From positions 661,740-725,739 of the forward strand of contig NZ_OY776488.1 of the NCBI RefSeq assembly GCF_963675635.1: 64,000 nt of DNA. The letters are read 5' to 3'. How positions within the stretch are numbered: the stretch's first letter is position 1; each line of letters opens with the position of its first letter. A model generated the notes under the pieces. It was not told where the DNA came from. It made no database searches and saw nothing but the letters and a program-made list of their open reading frames with translations. The DNA comes from an uncultured Pseudodesulfovibrio sp. Its GTDB lineage: Bacteria; Desulfobacterota; Desulfovibrionia; Desulfovibrionales; Desulfovibrionaceae. Positions 5,805 through 29,661 of the stretch are shown here, piece after piece. A program made the position numbers and the translations under genes.

Positions 5805-6980
5805 ATGTCTAAAAAATTCGCTCGGAGAATGCAGACGGTTCATCGTTCATTCATTCGAGAAATCTTGAAAGTTACTGCTGATCCCGAAATCATATCATTT
5901 GCTGGCGGGTTGCCTAATCCTGAACTGTTCCCCGTAGAAGCCATGGGCAAGGCCTCTCAGGAAGTCTTTGCCAATATAGGGTCTTCCGCCTTGCAGTATT
6001 CCACTACTGAAGGTGATGCAGGCCTCAGAGCAATCATTGCCAAGAGATACGCCAATCGTGGCTTGACTGTAGACCCGGATTCCATTCTCGTGACTTCGGG
6101 TTCGCAGCAGATTCTTGATATCTGTGCCAAAGTGTTTCTGGATAAGGGAGACAAGGTTGTTATCGAGCGGCCAGGTTATCTTGGAGCCATTCAGGCTTTT
6201 TCCATCTTTGAACCTGAGTTCGTGACCGTATCTCTTGAAGATGATGGCCCGAATCTTGAGGAGTTGGAAGCTGCCTTCAAGGACGGAGCAAAGTGTTTTT
6301 ACGCTGTTCCGAACTTCCAGAATCCTTCAGGTGTCAGCTATAGTCTGGAAAAGCGTAAGGCTGTGGCGGAATTGACGGACAGGTATGACGTGCTCTTTGT
6401 GGAAGATGATCCTTACGGCGAACTTCGCTTTCTGGGCGAGGACATGCCGAGTGTCTATTCCTTCAGCAAGAATCCCGGCATCCTGTGCGGTTCCTTCTCC
6501 AAGATTGCAGCACCGGGCTTCCGTATCGGTTGGGTCGTTGCCGAGAAGGCAGTCTACGACAAGCTGGTCATTGCCAAACAGGCATCTGATCTGCATACCT
6601 CCACGCTCGCTCAGGCCATAATGCGGCGGTATCTGGAGACCAACGATATTGAGACGCATGTGGAACTCATCAAGGATTGCTACGGACGTCAACGTGCGTG
6701 CATGGTCGAGATGATTGGAAAGTACTTCCCGAGTGAAGTTTCCATCACTCGGCCTGAGGGCGGCATGTTCCTGTGGGCAACCATGCCTGATGGCTTTTCG
6801 AGCATGGATCTCTTTGATGCAGCCATCAAGGAGAAGGTCGCGTTCGTTCCCGGAAGACCTTTCTATGTCGATGGTTCGGGCGAGAATACCCTGCGTCTCA
6901 ACTTCTCCAATTCCGACGAAGCGCGGATTGAGGAAGGCATCAAACGATTGGGTCTGAGCATCGATTCATTCTTGAAGTAA
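5805..6980 (+). CDS. PLP-dependent aminotransferase, class I/II (LysN/MocR-type catalytic domain)
   Basis: A 391-residue fold type I aminotransferase. Signature elements in order: SFAGGLPNPELFP (31-43), TSGSQQILD (97-105), ERPGYLGAIQAF (121-132), PNFQNPSG (169-176), the DDPYGEL cofactor segment (201-207) and SFSKIAAPGFRIGW with the PLP-binding Lys233. These are typical of the 2-aminoadipate/aromatic aminotransferase subgroup and of MocR regulators, but the DNA-binding domain of MocR proteins is absent. A strong AAGGAGATATA site precedes the ATG. The next gene is 51 bases downstream on the same strand. The amino acid substrate cannot be fixed from sequence. Confidence 0.88.
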   Translation: MSKKFARRMQTVHRSFIREILKVTADPEIISFAGGLPNPELFPVEAMGKASQEVFANIGSSALQYSTTEGDAGLRAIIAKRYANRGLTVDPDSILVTSGSQQILDICAKVFLDKGDKVVIERPGYLGAIQAFSIFEPEFVTVSLEDDGPNLEELEAAFKDGAKCFYAVPNFQNPSGVSYSLEKRKAVAELTDRYDVLFVEDDPYGELRFLGEDMPSVYSFSKNPGILCGSFSKIAAPGFRIGWVVAEKAVYDKLVIAKQASDLHTSTLAQAIMRRYLETNDIETHVELIKDCYGRQRACMVEMIGKYFPSEVSITRPEGGMFLWATMPDGFSSMDLFDAAIKEKVAFVPGRPFYVDGSGENTLRLNFSNSDEARIEEGIKRLGLSIDSFLK

Positions 6981-7031
6981 CGACTTTGGTCATGAGGGAC
7001 GACCAGAGCGCAATCGTATAGGTGGAGCATC

Positions 7032-8741
7032 ATGTCTCAACATATTGTTGTTATAGGCGGTGTGGCCCTTGGCCCCAAGGCTGCCTGCCGTTTTAAACGG
7101 CTTGAACCGGAATCAACGGTGACCATGATCGACCAGAGTGCTCTCATCTCCTACGGGGGGTGTGGCATTCCGTATTATGTTTCCGGAGATGTTTCTGACG
7201 CGGTGGAATTATCCCAGACAAGCTTTCACATGATCCGTGACCCGAAGTTCTTCAAGGAAGTCAAAGGGGTCGATGTCCGCATCCTGACGAAGGCTACGAG
7301 TATCAATCGGGAGAAGAAGTGTGTCGAGGTCGAGAATGTAACGACCGGAGAGAAGGCAAGTATTGATTATGACAAGCTGGTCATCGCTACAGGTGCTTCC
7401 CCTCGAAAGCTGAATCTGCCCGGTGATGATCTTGAAGGCGTCAATTACGTATGTAACCCTGATGACGCTACATGTATCCGTGAATCCATTTCCAAAGGGA
7501 AAGTGAGTAACGCTGTCATTATTGGTGCAGGTTTTATCGGTCTGGAAATGGCTGAAGCCTTTGCTGACATGTGGGGCGTGGAAACGTCTGTTGTGGAAAT
7601 CACTGATCAGATATTACCACGTTTAGTCAGTCCTGCGCTCGCAACCATGGGCCAGAAGCACATGGAAGAGGGCGGGGTAAACTTCTACTTTGGCGAAACC
7701 GTCACAGCTATTGAAGGCGAGAACGGCAAGGTCGTGCGTGTCGTGACCAACAAGCGGACCCTTGATGCCGAAGCCGTGATTATCGCCGCAGGCGTGGTTC
7801 CGAACTCCGATATAGCCAAGGAAGCCGGTCTGCATGTGCATGAGCGGGGCGGTGTTTTCGTTGACGAGTTCATGCGGACCAACGACCCGGATATCTATGC
7901 TGGCGGCGACTGCTGTCTCGTCAAGAATCTCATTACCGATCAGCCGGCCTATCTGCCGCTCGGCTCCATGGCCAACCGCCAGGGACGTGTCATCGGTTCA
8001 AATCTCGCCGGTAGCGAAAGCCGGTTTGATGGAGTTCTCGGTTCTTTTGTGGTCAAGTTGTTTGAGACATCCATGGCCGGGACCGGCATGAGTCTTGATT
8101 CTGCTCAGGCTGTCGGATTCGATGCCATGAGCGTGCTGCTTATTCAGCTCGATCGTGCGCATTTTTATCCTACAAAAGAGCTCATGACACTTGAAATGGT
8201 CGTGGAGAAATCCACACGACGTGTGCTTGGCGTGCAGGGATTCGGTAGCTCCGGTGACGCTATGGTTGGCCGTATCAATACTGTGGCCGCCATTCTCAAG
8301 TCCAAGCCGACTATCGATGAAATCTCCAACCTTGAAATGGCCTACTCCCCGCCGTTTGCTGCAGCCATGGACATTCTCAATACCTTGGCCAATCTGGCTG
8401 ACAACGCATTGCGTGGTATTAATCGTGGTGTTGGTCCCGATGGGTTCAAAGAACTCTGGGACAATCGTGAGTCTTGTGACTGTTACTTCCTTGACTGTCG
8501 TGAGAATGCTGATGCGCAGCCGGTCATGGACCGCAATCCAGACCAGTGGCATAACGTGCCCCAGGGCGAGATCTACAATCGTCTGGACGAGATTCCCAAG
8601 GACAAGCCCGTAGTGCTTGTGTGCAATACCGGCGCACGGTCGTACGAAGCGCAAATCATGCTCGATGCCAAAGGCTATAAGAATGTTACCAACATTCATG
8701 GCGGCATGGCTTCTATCAAGAAGTATGGAGTTGATATCTAG
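7032..8741 (+). CDS. FAD-dependent pyridine nucleotide-disulfide oxidoreductase with C-terminal rhodanese domain (CoA-disulfide reductase-like)
   Basis: 569 residues. The N-terminal FAD site is VVIGGVALGPKAA (6-18), and a single redox Cys44 sits in SYGGCGIPYY, the motif of CoA-disulfide reductase and Npsr-type enzymes. The NAD(P)H site is IIGAGFIGLEMAEAF near 160-174. A dimerisation domain follows. The last 110 residues are a rhodanese domain with catalytic Cys531 in VCNTGARS. This CoADR-Rhd architecture is known from enzymes that reduce CoA persulfide, polysulfide or sulfur with NAD(P)H, which suits a sulfur-metabolising anaerobe. It is likely cytoplasmic and ends at a strong terminator. The exact substrate is inferred. 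Confidence 0.88.
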   Translation: MSQHIVVIGGVALGPKAACRFKRLEPESTVTMIDQSALISYGGCGIPYYVSGDVSDAVELSQTSFHMIRDPKFFKEVKGVDVRILTKATSINREKKCVEVENVTTGEKASIDYDKLVIATGASPRKLNLPGDDLEGVNYVCNPDDATCIRESISKGKVSNAVIIGAGFIGLEMAEAFADMWGVETSVVEITDQILPRLVSPALATMGQKHMEEGGVNFYFGETVTAIEGENGKVVRVVTNKRTLDAEAVIIAAGVVPNSDIAKEAGLHVHERGGVFVDEFMRTNDPDIYAGGDCCLVKNLITDQPAYLPLGSMANRQGRVIGSNLAGSESRFDGVLGSFVVKLFETSMAGTGMSLDSAQAVGFDAMSVLLIQLDRAHFYPTKELMTLEMVVEKSTRRVLGVQGFGSSGDAMVGRINTVAAILKSKPTIDEISNLEMAYSPPFAAAMDILNTLANLADNALRGINRGVGPDGFKELWDNRESCDCYFLDCRENADAQPVMDRNPDQWHNVPQGEIYNRLDEIPKDKPVVLVCNTGARSYEAQIMLDAKGYKNVTNIHGGMASIKKYGVDI

Positions 8742-28240: not shown

Positions 28241-29032
28241 TTACAGCAGCTTCATGGCTGCATCCACATCCCAGTTTTCATGAACGACCTTGTTTAGTGC
28301 GGCCACGATTTTGGCTGGATTCTTGTGTTGGAAAATATTTCTGCCAACGGAAAGCCCTGCGCCGCCGGCCTGAATGGAATCATAGACCATCTGCACGAGA
28401 TCACGGTCACTTTCCAGTTTTGGTCCGCCTGCAATAACCACAGGTACGCAACACCCTTCTACAACAGCTTTGAAAGATTCAGGGTCGCCGGTATAGTTCA
28501 CTTTGACGATGTCTGCACCAAGCTCCACGCCGACTCTGGCGCAATGGGCTACTACCTGCGGGTCATATTCGTTGTCGATTTTTGGTCCGCGTGCGTACAT
28601 CATCGCAAGGACGGGCATGCCCCATTCATTGGCTTCTGAACACAGTGCGCCGAGGTCGGCTAACATTTGTGATTCGGTTTCATCACCCAGGTTGACGTGA
28701 ACGGACACGGCATCTGCTCCGAGTTTGAGGGCGTCAGAGACTGTGCCTACCATGGTTTTGGCGTTGGGGTGTGGTGATAGTGAAGTTGATGCGGAAAGGT
28801 GGATTATCAGGCCGATGTCTTTGCCCCCTGCACGGTGAGAGCATCTGGGAATTCCCTTGTGCATGAGCATGGCGTTCGCTCCGCCCTCTGCTACCTGATT
28901 AACTGTGTCGCGCAGATCTACCAGCCCGTAGATGGGGCCGACGGTTACGCCGTGGTCCAGAGGCACGACGATAGTGCGTCCGTTGTTGCGATTCATGATA
29001 CGTTCCATGCGAATGGCTTTTCCGAGATGCAT
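28241..29032 (-). CDS. aroA': 2-amino-3,7-dideoxy-D-threo-hept-6-ulosonate (ADH) synthase, DhnA/MJ0400 type
   Basis: 263 residues, close throughout to the Methanocaldococcus MJ0400 enzyme: [82 protein letters not shown] (Schiff-base Lys), AGGPK and VGRNIFQH. In archaea and Desulfovibrio this aldolase condenses aspartate semialdehyde with a deoxyketose phosphate to start 3-dehydroquinate synthesis, replacing DAHP synthase. Class I fructose-bisphosphate aldolase is the related alternative. I start at ATG 29032 after AAGGAGAGTCC. The usual partner dehydroquinate synthase II is not adjacent. The 5' leader carries a Phe-rich peptide and an attenuator (29069-29241). Confidence 0.9.
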
Positions 29033-29068: not shown

Positions 29069-29104
29069 CAAAAAAAGAGGCCGCGGTTTTTGCCGCGGCC
29101 TCTT
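29069..29104 (-). terminator. Attenuator terminator in the leader of the ADH synthase gene
   Basis: A perfect 12-bp stem on the minus strand, AAGAGGCCGCGG (29104-29093) with CCGCGGCCTCTT (29086-29075) and a CAAAAA loop, continues into a run of seven T (29076-29070). It lies 37 bases before the gene start, leaving no room for another promoter, so it must act on transcripts that enter the gene. It may also stop read-through from ridA. Confidence 0.88.
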
Positions 29105-29147
29105 GGGTGATTCTGTAGACGTCAATACTAATGTACACCAAGACCGC
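29095..29147 (-). promoter_or_regulatory. Antiterminator pairing competing with the attenuator
   Basis: On the minus strand GCGGTCTTGGTG (29147-29136) can pair with CACCCAAGAGGCCGC (29109-29095): four, six and two base pairs separated by small bulges. The second element contains most of the 5' arm of the terminator, so the two structures exclude each other. The first element lies between the last leader Phe codon (29158-29160) and the leader stop (29128-29130). This is where a ribosome finishing the peptide would cover it and one stalled at the Phe codons would not. Confidence 0.65.
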
Positions 29148-29205
29148 AGGCGTTTCTGAAATAAAAGCTAAAAAAGAAAAAGAAACGTGTGGTGATGTTG
29201 TGCAT
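29128..29205 (-). CDS. Phenylalanine-rich leader peptide (25 residues) of the ADH synthase attenuator
   Basis: ATG at 29205 opens 25 codons ending TAG at 29128-29130. Codons 8-16 read FFFFFSFYF: seven Phe and one Tyr in nine residues, a composition like the E. coli pheA and pheST leader peptides. Ribosome stalling at uncharged tRNA-Phe would free the antiterminator and allow transcription of the aromatic-pathway gene. No Shine-Dalgarno site precedes the ATG. The predicted -10 box ends only about 9 bases upstream, so the leader may be translated from a nearly leaderless transcript. The peptide itself probably has no other function. Confidence 0.75.
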
Positions 29206-29213
29206 TAATAATG

Positions 29214-29241
29214 GTTATCTGTTTAGTCTGTCCTGTGTCAA
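29214..29241 (-). promoter_or_regulatory. Candidate sigma-70 promoter of the ADH synthase leader
   Basis: On the minus strand TTGACA (29241-29236) and GATAAC (29219-29214) are 16 bases apart. The -35 box is a perfect consensus and the -10 matches four of six. Transcription should begin near 29206-29208, at the leader-peptide ATG. Confidence 0.5.
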
Positions 29242-29277: not shown

Positions 29278-29661
29278 TTAGTCCACCAAAGCGATGCACT
29301 TGAACTCAACCAAACCTCCCAGAGGCAGACCGGCAACCTGAATGGCAGCCCGAGCCGGTTTGTGGTTAGGGAAATATTGAGAGTAGATGGTGTTCAGGTC
29401 GGCGAATTTGCCCATGTCCATGACGAATACGTCCACAGCCATGACTTTGTTCAGAGAAGAACCGGCTTCTTCAAGAATGGCTTTCATGTTTTCGAGAGCC
29501 TGTTTGGTCTGCGCTTCAAATCCTTCGGCAAGTTTGCCTTCGCCGGGAATGATGCCGAGTTGGCCGGAGACGAACAGCATGCCGTTGACTGTGGTGGCTT
29601 GAGAATAGGGGCCTACGGCGGCCGGTGCTTTGTCTGTATGGATCAGCGTGATGTCGGACAT
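29278..29661 (-). CDS. ridA: RidA/YjgF-family enamine/imine deaminase
   Basis: 127 residues matching the Rid family from end to end: KAPAAVGPYSQATTVNGMLFVSGQLG near the N-terminus, QTKQALENMKAILEEAGSSLNKV in the middle and PARAAIQVAGLPLGGLVEFKCIAL at the C-terminus. The conserved substrate-binding Arg in PARAAIQVAGLP is present. It hydrolyses reactive 2-aminoacrylate and related enamines made by PLP enzymes. The ATG follows GGAGACAG closely and lies 11 bases after the stop of the Gate-domain gene, so the two are likely cotranscribed. Confidence 0.92.
   Translation of the reverse strand: MSDITLIHTDKAPAAVGPYSQATTVNGMLFVSGQLGIIPGEGKLAEGFEAQTKQALENMKAILEEAGSSLNKVMAVDVFVMDMGKFADLNTIYSQYFPNHKPARAAIQVAGLPLGGLVEFKCIALVD

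Follow-up and report, generated by a model that had tools for sequence, protein, structure and literature searches.

The region in front of a stand-alone gene for an archaeal-type ADH synthase (ADHS) in an uncultured, sulfate-reducing Pseudodesulfovibrio very probably acts as a ribosome-mediated transcription attenuator of the trp/phe type, one that would switch the gene on when charged tRNA-Phe is scarce. It lies within a 64,000-nucleotide stretch of DNA, referred to here as the window, and consists of a short open reading frame rich in Phe codons followed by two mutually exclusive RNA pairings, one of which forms an intrinsic terminator. An attenuator had been proposed in an initial annotation of the window, and comparison with relatives supports that reading: within the order (Desulfovibrionales), 106 of the 112 ADHS upstream regions compared contain an aromatic-rich leader, as do all 30 loci of the genus, and the 2:3 and 3:4 stems are kept. 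What is proposed is a concrete mechanism with recurrent examples across the order.

The product of the downstream gene scores 405.5 bits against TIGR01949 (cut-off 299.45) and is also above the cut-off of PRK07226, so that two curated models bear out its earlier identification as ADH synthase. The closest named matches are from Pseudodesulfovibrio (97% identity), and no DHQ synthase gene was found in the 1.5 kb downstream of the window copy. The upstream neighbour, ridA (29278-29661), ends just 5' of the promoter-like site. The elements of the leader are collected in Table 1.

Table 1. Features of the ADHS leader region in the window and of a second leader in the same genome
Feature	Position	Strand	Basis or remark
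ADH synthase (2-amino-3,7-dideoxy-D-threo-hept-6-ulosonate synthase), stand-alone copy	28241..29032	-	TIGR01949, PRK07226
-35 hexamer TTGACA	29236..29241	-	leader promoter, read from sequence
-10 hexamer GATAAC	29214..29219	-	ends 8 nt 5' of leader ATG
Leader peptide ORF, 25 codons	29128..29205	-	ATG at 29205, TAG ends 29128
Regulatory codons 8-16, FFFFFSFYF	29158..29184	-	translation of leader ORF
Region 1, 5' arm of 1:2 (pause/protector) hairpin	29181..29205	-	fold, counted from ATG
Region 2, 3' arm of 1:2 and 5' arm of antiterminator	29126..29157	-	fold and duplexes
Region 3, 3' arm of antiterminator and 5' arm of terminator	29093..29109	-	duplex scoring
3:4 intrinsic terminator, 12 pairs, loop of 6	29075..29104	-	sequence and terminator search
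U tract, 7 T	29070..29076	-	first two also paired within terminator stem
Second Phe leader and terminator	G000:C1:1020129-1020295 (L003 about 8120-8300)	minus	DNA search of own genome

The promoter hexamers and the Phe-rich 25-codon frame described in the initial annotation were confirmed at their positions on the minus strand, and the terminator was recovered both from the sequence and by a terminator search, with 12 pairs, seven U and 37 nt between its T run and the ADHS ATG (29032), as had been claimed. The two hexamers are separated by a 16 nt spacer (GATAAC was missed by the program scan, whose rule required a T at the final position), and the site is located 5' of the leader and not 3' of the terminator. 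When folded, the 151-nt leader (29210-29060) gave a minimum free energy of -48.5 kcal/mol, whereas shuffled sequences averaged -29.0 kcal/mol (z -5.8; 0 of 200 shuffles equal), the computed fold beginning 5 nt 5' of the ATG, probably before the 5' end of the RNA. In this structure the 3:4 terminator is accompanied by a long 1:2 hairpin whose loop and upper part carry the Phe codons. The geometry expected of attenuation is present, with the regulatory codons inside the 1:2 hairpin and the end of the leader ORF, together with its stop codon, within region 2. The alternative pairing put forward earlier also exists: GCGGUCUUGGUG (29147-29136) pairs with a segment starting at 29109 and uses up the 5' arm of the terminator, the duplex scoring -23.8 and -20.8 kcal/mol in two scripts whose segments differed slightly. 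The window 2:3 duplex (-20.8) is not stronger than 3:4 (-24.2 kcal/mol), and most relatives form a stronger one, since one G is missing from region 3 here.

From this arrangement we infer a start site, ribosome stalling, termination, and expression governed by a Phe response that is coupled to charged tRNA-Phe. Transcription would start at or next to the leader ATG, and the leaderless mRNA would be translated behind the polymerase. With ample Phe-tRNA, the ribosome would reach the leader stop codon and cover region 2, upon which the 3:4 hairpin would end transcription some 40 nt upstream of the gene. If Phe-tRNA runs low, the ribosome would instead stall on FFFFFSFYF inside the 1:2 hairpin, leaving region 2 to pair with region 3, so that the terminator would be blocked and ADHS made. 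A like device may guard a second, operon-borne ADHS (with a Phe/Tyr/Trp leader) as well as a sodium:solute symporter and a phenylacetate-CoA ligase (with Phe leaders).

Within the genus, the 30 best-matching ADHS orthologues out of 33 genomes searched were compared (alignment A1). A Phe-rich leader is found at all 30 loci, the weakest being that of L122 (FFCAFIF), which with L138 is the most divergent of the orthologues, and the leader stop codon ends 93–113 nt 5' of the ADHS ATG. A 2:3 duplex is possible at all 30 loci (-22.5 to -31.2 kcal/mol), so that a check for orthologues that had lost the Phe-rich frame or the competing stems found leader and duplex kept throughout. In A1, the terminator has 99.4% of cells paired and four pairs altered on both sides, a number reached by 0 of 500 shuffles, with a number of pair types no higher than in shuffles. 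The antiterminator has 90.5% of cells paired but shows little covariation of its own within the genus: 147 of 500 shuffles match its two-sided pair number and 36 match its percentage paired. Across 29 genus leaders, Phe occupies the five run columns in 23/28, 28/28, 29/29, 29/29 and 28/29 rows, using TTT as well as TTC. Codon diversity in the genus leaders is 0.273 at third positions versus 0.169 and 0.172 at the other two, and 30 of the 32 gaps in the core of the ORF are multiples of 3.

Matches to ADHS were obtained in 287 of 297 genomes searched (E <= 1e-60). The comparison of upstream regions among relatives that had been suggested as a check was made on 112 of them, namely L114-L145 (the 30 genus loci and two paralogues of the own genome) and 80 hand-picked among the matches listed, five of which also belong to the genus. 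In 106 of the 112, a short ORF (10–40 aa) contains an 8-residue stretch in which 5 or more residues are aromatic; the same scan was positive for 5 of 112 reverse complements and for 52 of 2240 dinucleotide shuffles, and when 6 or more were required the numbers were 105/112, 0/112 and 2/2240. Six regions fell under the threshold, including L164, with an ORF one residue over the length limit, and the weak L122; the leader scan found no leader in four of the 112 (L145, L205, L219, L221). Thirty further genomes from 17 genera were added to cover genera missing among the hand-picked loci, and all 30 of their best ADHS matches are preceded by an aromatic leader under a laxer scan (8–70 aa), which also picked up 7 of 30 reverse complements. 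Terminators were located by script in 97 of the 106 leaders, L208 among these being a mis-call, and for two of the nine misses (L139 and L140) the hairpin is visible in A1, followed by a T tail that is interrupted. Folding from the ATG gave a 1:2 hairpin of at least 8 pairs in 41/41 stand-alone and 64/65 operon leaders, a pair count without shuffled control; the folding energy of this hairpin averages 2.1–2.5 SD below shuffles.

The elements of the leader and their conservation can be read from the sequences, and so can the co-variation of regions 2 and 3 across genera. Among 51 non-redundant leaders, region 2 pairs 4.3 kcal/mol better with its own region 3 than with those of others (double-centred; z -9.4; 0 of 20,000 permutations). 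Taking one leader per genus, z was -7.1 in the operon class (n = 28) and -2.2 in the stand-alone class (n = 6), where 455 of 20,000 permutations were as low. Shuffled versions of region 2 pair less well (mean -18.2 kcal/mol, compared with -31.1 for the native ones). In 90 of 96 leaders no more than 1 of 50 shuffles was as good, and the remaining six were not clearly better than their shuffles. L208, with its mis-called terminator, was omitted from both tests and L171, the frame of which ends early, from the per-genus one.

The placement of the promoter bears on how the leader is translated. A TTGACA/TATAAT-like pair (at least 8 of 12 positions) with its -10 ending 4–10 nt 5' of the leader ATG occurs at 99 of 106 leaders, compared with 6.9% of random anchors. 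Much of this score comes from the TTGACA, which is nearly perfect, and less from the weaker -10 matches; where several in-frame ATGs were available the best was taken, a slight advantage over the control. The distances from -10 to ATG are 5–10 nt, 91 of the 99 being within 6–9. Shine-Dalgarno-like 4-mers are found 5' of the leader ATG in 11 of 106 cases, which is the random rate (572/5300, 10.8%), and 5' of the ADHS ATG in 96 of 106. Given this promoter placement and the lack of Shine-Dalgarno enrichment, the mRNA is predicted to be leaderless, with its 5' end at the leader ATG or no more than a few nt away. Transcription of S. meliloti trpL starts at the leader ATG (PMC7298713), and leaderless attenuator peptides starting at the ATG are described for leuL, trpL, ilvL and others of S. 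lividans (PMC8079986); those leaders concern other amino acids and other phyla, while here leaderlessness is a prediction from promoter placement.

A protein search showed that the genome has three ADHS copies. The second heads an operon ADHS - DHQ synthase II - pheA - aroA - tyrA - trpE - trpG (several of the profile matches behind these names are under the model cut-offs, yet name these families), and is preceded by the leader MNSTTASNSSFSNFTFWYWYCHARGLGRGVL, with its own terminator. Within one genome, therefore, a stand-alone leader reading FFFFFSFYF can be set against an operon leader with the core FTFWYWY. At the third copy (L145 / L147 3754-4569) neither a leader nor a DHQ synthase neighbour was detected; this paralogue sits on a long branch in the ADHS tree. 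It had been concluded in the initial annotation that charged tRNA-Phe controls entry into the pathway. The Phe leader of the window ADHS agrees with this, but the claim needs qualifying because only one of three copies is concerned, the operon copy having a Phe/Tyr/Trp leader and the third no leader that could be found.

The same contrast was followed through the other genomes, as leader codon content can be compared with the products of the controlled genes in what amounts to a natural experiment. In the first set, a Trp codon is present in 64/65 leaders of ADHS-DHQS operons and in 0/41 leaders of stand-alone ADHS genes (genus loci were seen for 1.5 kb downstream, and L148 was counted as stand-alone though its contig ends 17 nt after the gene). 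The further 30 genomes, with Trp in 21/29 operon leaders and in one stand-alone leader (L374, a locus with none of six aromatic genes in 12 kb), bring the totals to 85/94 and 1/42, and weaken the simple rule that Trp marks an operon and its absence a stand-alone gene. Part of this scatter appears to depend on whether the operon contains trpE. At loci seen for at least 9 kb, trpE lies downstream of 25/32 leaders with Trp codons (the own operon, 19/20 earlier loci and 5/11 further-genome loci) versus 0/6 without (Fisher 6e-4), although such P values overstate independence because the loci are related. Counted inversely, Trp codons occur in 25/25 operons with trpE and in 7/13 without trpE found; the latter is no frequency estimate, the loci being related and picked by leader type. 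They comprised all eight further operons without Trp, L374, 11/21 with Trp and 20/65 earlier operons, and L359/L382 and L363/L384 were not counted, their contigs stopping at 4.5 and 5.8 kb. The ADHS tree has five changes of context and four of leader type, and only two independent pairs on well-supported branches, both in the expected direction. In nine genomes where both copies have leaders (the own genome, G074, G106, G114, G120, G138, G173, G216 and G269), the stand-alone leader is without Trp and the operon leader with it; in G084, G191 and G227 the stand-alone copy shows no leader. The mean core content of Phe/Tyr/Trp is 6.6/0.5/0 in stand-alone and 3.8/2.7/1.5 in operon leaders. Judged from these comparisons, the leader codon set tends to follow what the controlled genes would make.

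A DNA search of the own genome turned up another leader segment (Table 1), which shares 85% identity with that of the window over some 50 nt. It encodes MNTYQNRFSFFFFFCFRFFRSACGLGVCM*, has its own terminator, and is followed by a small symporter-accessory protein (NF045580) and an SSS-family sodium:solute symporter. The strong synonymous bias in the Phe run of the window (TTC TTT TTC TTT TTT at 29158-29184) is common to the symporter leader. A covariance model built from A1 and run over 36 genus genomes gave three score groups among the matches listed, and of 20 further places examined, 17 precede an SSS symporter, two an operon ADHS and one a phenylacetate-CoA ligase (PaaK; 641.5 bits, just below the cut-off of 646.3). 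The 17 symporters, from 17 genomes, are 67–96% identical to the own copy, every one with a Phe-rich leader. Within the own genome, three matches have E < 1e-4 (the ADHS, symporter and operon leaders) and the other 20, with E from 0.12 to 9, are mostly terminator-sized; the scan is not exhaustive, as the shorter leader of paaK is absent from its matches. Runs of five TTY codons were translated at 11 distinct places in this genome, and only the ADHS and symporter leaders carry the shared tail.

The own paaK has the leader MKNFLVSRSFFFFMCPQ with a terminator, likewise some relatives, and a similar small ORF follows paaK in the own region (L346 about 6100-8095) and in L273 1-1570. In one genome of another family (L339) the paaK leader is a mixture of F, Y and W, FFATYWYFWYGF. 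Sampling the best 30 paaK loci, 8 of the genus and 22 others, under a rule of at least 3 aromatic residues in 5, four of the genus loci pass and four keep the small ORF and terminator with few Phe codons, while six of the others pass, four of them clearly (L324, L336, L337, L339), so the paaK leader is patchy among relatives. A single Phe unit of PaaK and IOR was considered and rejected, there being no aromatic-rich leader ORF in the 400 nt upstream of the own IOR-alpha gene. Taken together, the shared leaders suggest that ADHS, symporter and phenylacetate-CoA ligase form a small Phe regulon. The symporter becomes a candidate importer of Phe or phenylacetate, either of which is a substrate that the regulon would predict for it, and a biosynthetic, Phe-sparing role would be predicted for PaaK. 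Phe can be synthesized from phenylacetate by reductive carboxylation, a subject on which nothing was found among open-licence papers. We lean slightly towards a broader reading in which the alternative aromatic pathway would be run as an attenuation-based isozyme system, with duplicated ADHS genes behind leaderless leaders whose codon sets would reflect what each copy feeds, Phe alone (stand-alone copy) or Phe, Tyr and Trp (operon with trp genes), and with the small Phe regulon of ADHS, symporter and phenylacetate-CoA ligase adding salvage of Phe or phenylacetate. If true, such a system would mirror, at the level of codons, the separately regulated DAHP synthase isozymes of E. coli.

Other readings of the region were weighed. 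Because ridA ends so near, a terminator at this place would be unremarkable, and the element might be an ordinary ridA terminator next to a chance U-rich stretch read as Phe codons, with the ADHS promoter farther downstream. This is hardly credible, since all 30 genus orthologues examined have both the Phe-rich frame and the two competing stems (2:3 and 3:4), since the same architecture stands before ADHS genes across the order, and since the operon leaders rely on Tyr and Trp codons (TAT, TAC, TGG) and not on a U tract. A regulator acting at the RNA level is very improbable as well. Here the leader would bind a ligand or protein (riboswitch-like, Hfq, Rho) and the peptide would be incidental, or would cause arrest through its RNACGLGV tail; the well conserved ACGLG within this tail could speak for arrest, but region 2 accounts for it, as this segment has to base-pair both with region 1 and with region 3 and co-varies with the latter. 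The synonymous bias of the Phe run (mostly TTC TTT TTC TTT TTT) would suit an RNA signal, and so would the lack of any known family, no Rfam covariance model matching in the window at its gathering score; yet the choice of codons (F, or F+Y+W) tends to match the controlled genes, a match that a ligand-binding RNA would not require. At a relaxed threshold, the best Rfam matches at the leaders' own loci were BSnc120 (28.1 bits, gathering 114) and Thr_leader (21.8 bits versus a gathering score of 55), and the leader is itself a candidate RNA family for Rfam.

Closer to the Phe-specific attenuator preferred here is one that senses general translation or aromatic status and not Phe in particular, as there is a Tyr codon in the window run (SFYF), U-rich codons may be decoded slowly, and Tyr is found in the core of 17/41 stand-alone leaders. 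We consider this unlikely, given that the stand-alone cores are dominated by Phe in the mean contents given above, versus the mixed operon cores, and that the conserved codons of the genus leaders are the Phe ones.

The leaders of pheL-pheA and pheST in E. coli have an antiterminator and terminator anatomy. Both systems possess a leader peptide, with expression governed by Phe-charged tRNA (PMC11802643), and the window is like them in having a leader peptide before the controlled gene, but they control chorismate mutase/prephenate dehydratase or a tRNA synthetase, whereas the window leader would control the pathway entry enzyme. The nearest functional parallel appears to be aroR-aroF of C. glutamicum, where a Phe-Tyr-Phe leader precedes the first-step enzyme, DAHP synthase (PMC11802643). 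It belongs to the ordinary shikimate route of an actinobacterium, and one such leader is described in the available text of that source, compared with a paralogue-matched pair here. Also comparable is uORFC-13-1, a predicted Phe-dependent uORF attenuator before aroF, represented by 24 sequences from Acholeplasma and unknown environmental organisms (PMC8632094). It shares with the present leader a first-step enzyme and a downstream terminator, and may include a promoter along with the uORF within the motif, but differs in that the enzyme is DAHP synthase, the uORF has at least one Phe codon, and there is an RBS (PMC8632094). In a transcriptome of D. hydrothermalis, an aromatic gene cluster is reported to change with pressure, and a term search of that text found neither 'attenuation' nor 'leader'. 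The mechanism proposed here is classical, and its target is one for which no description of such control was found in the open-licence literature searched: among these papers, mostly represented by titles and the beginnings of abstracts, none was found on transcriptional control of the archaeal-type ADH synthase branch, and an ADHS attenuator was not found in those on Desulfovibrio or deltaproteobacterial attenuation, proteobacterial aromatic attenuation, DAHP synthase attenuation or the Desulfovibrio shikimate pathway.

A pattern search with the region-2 15-mer (one mismatch) was uninformative: matches came from 112 of 199 genomes, and from many also when the pattern was reversed as a control, and the loci it gave (L004-L033) were left out of all counts. 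Outside the order the picture is more fragmentary. Aromatic leaders and terminators do precede the ADHS operons of Desulfoluna and some other named Desulfobacterota, but the 2:3 duplex, in a simple test at eight such loci, reached no more than -9 to -14 kcal/mol. No aromatic leader or terminator was seen at most of the more distant ADHS loci examined. In Desulfoluna and relatives (L064, L073, L076, L079, L084) a nearly invariant leader, MIRFFSAFYYFYYWYHIGVPRHALNHTHL, stands before ADHS, with a terminator about 95 nt upstream. A separate observation concerns gene spacing: DHQ synthase starts 830–1005 nt after ADHS at L155, L159, L166, L182, L188, L191 and L200 (genera g51, g6, g12 and g52), a gap that could fit a second, tandem ADHS, and adjacent ADHS pairs occur among the matches listed in G076, G142, G251 and G285.
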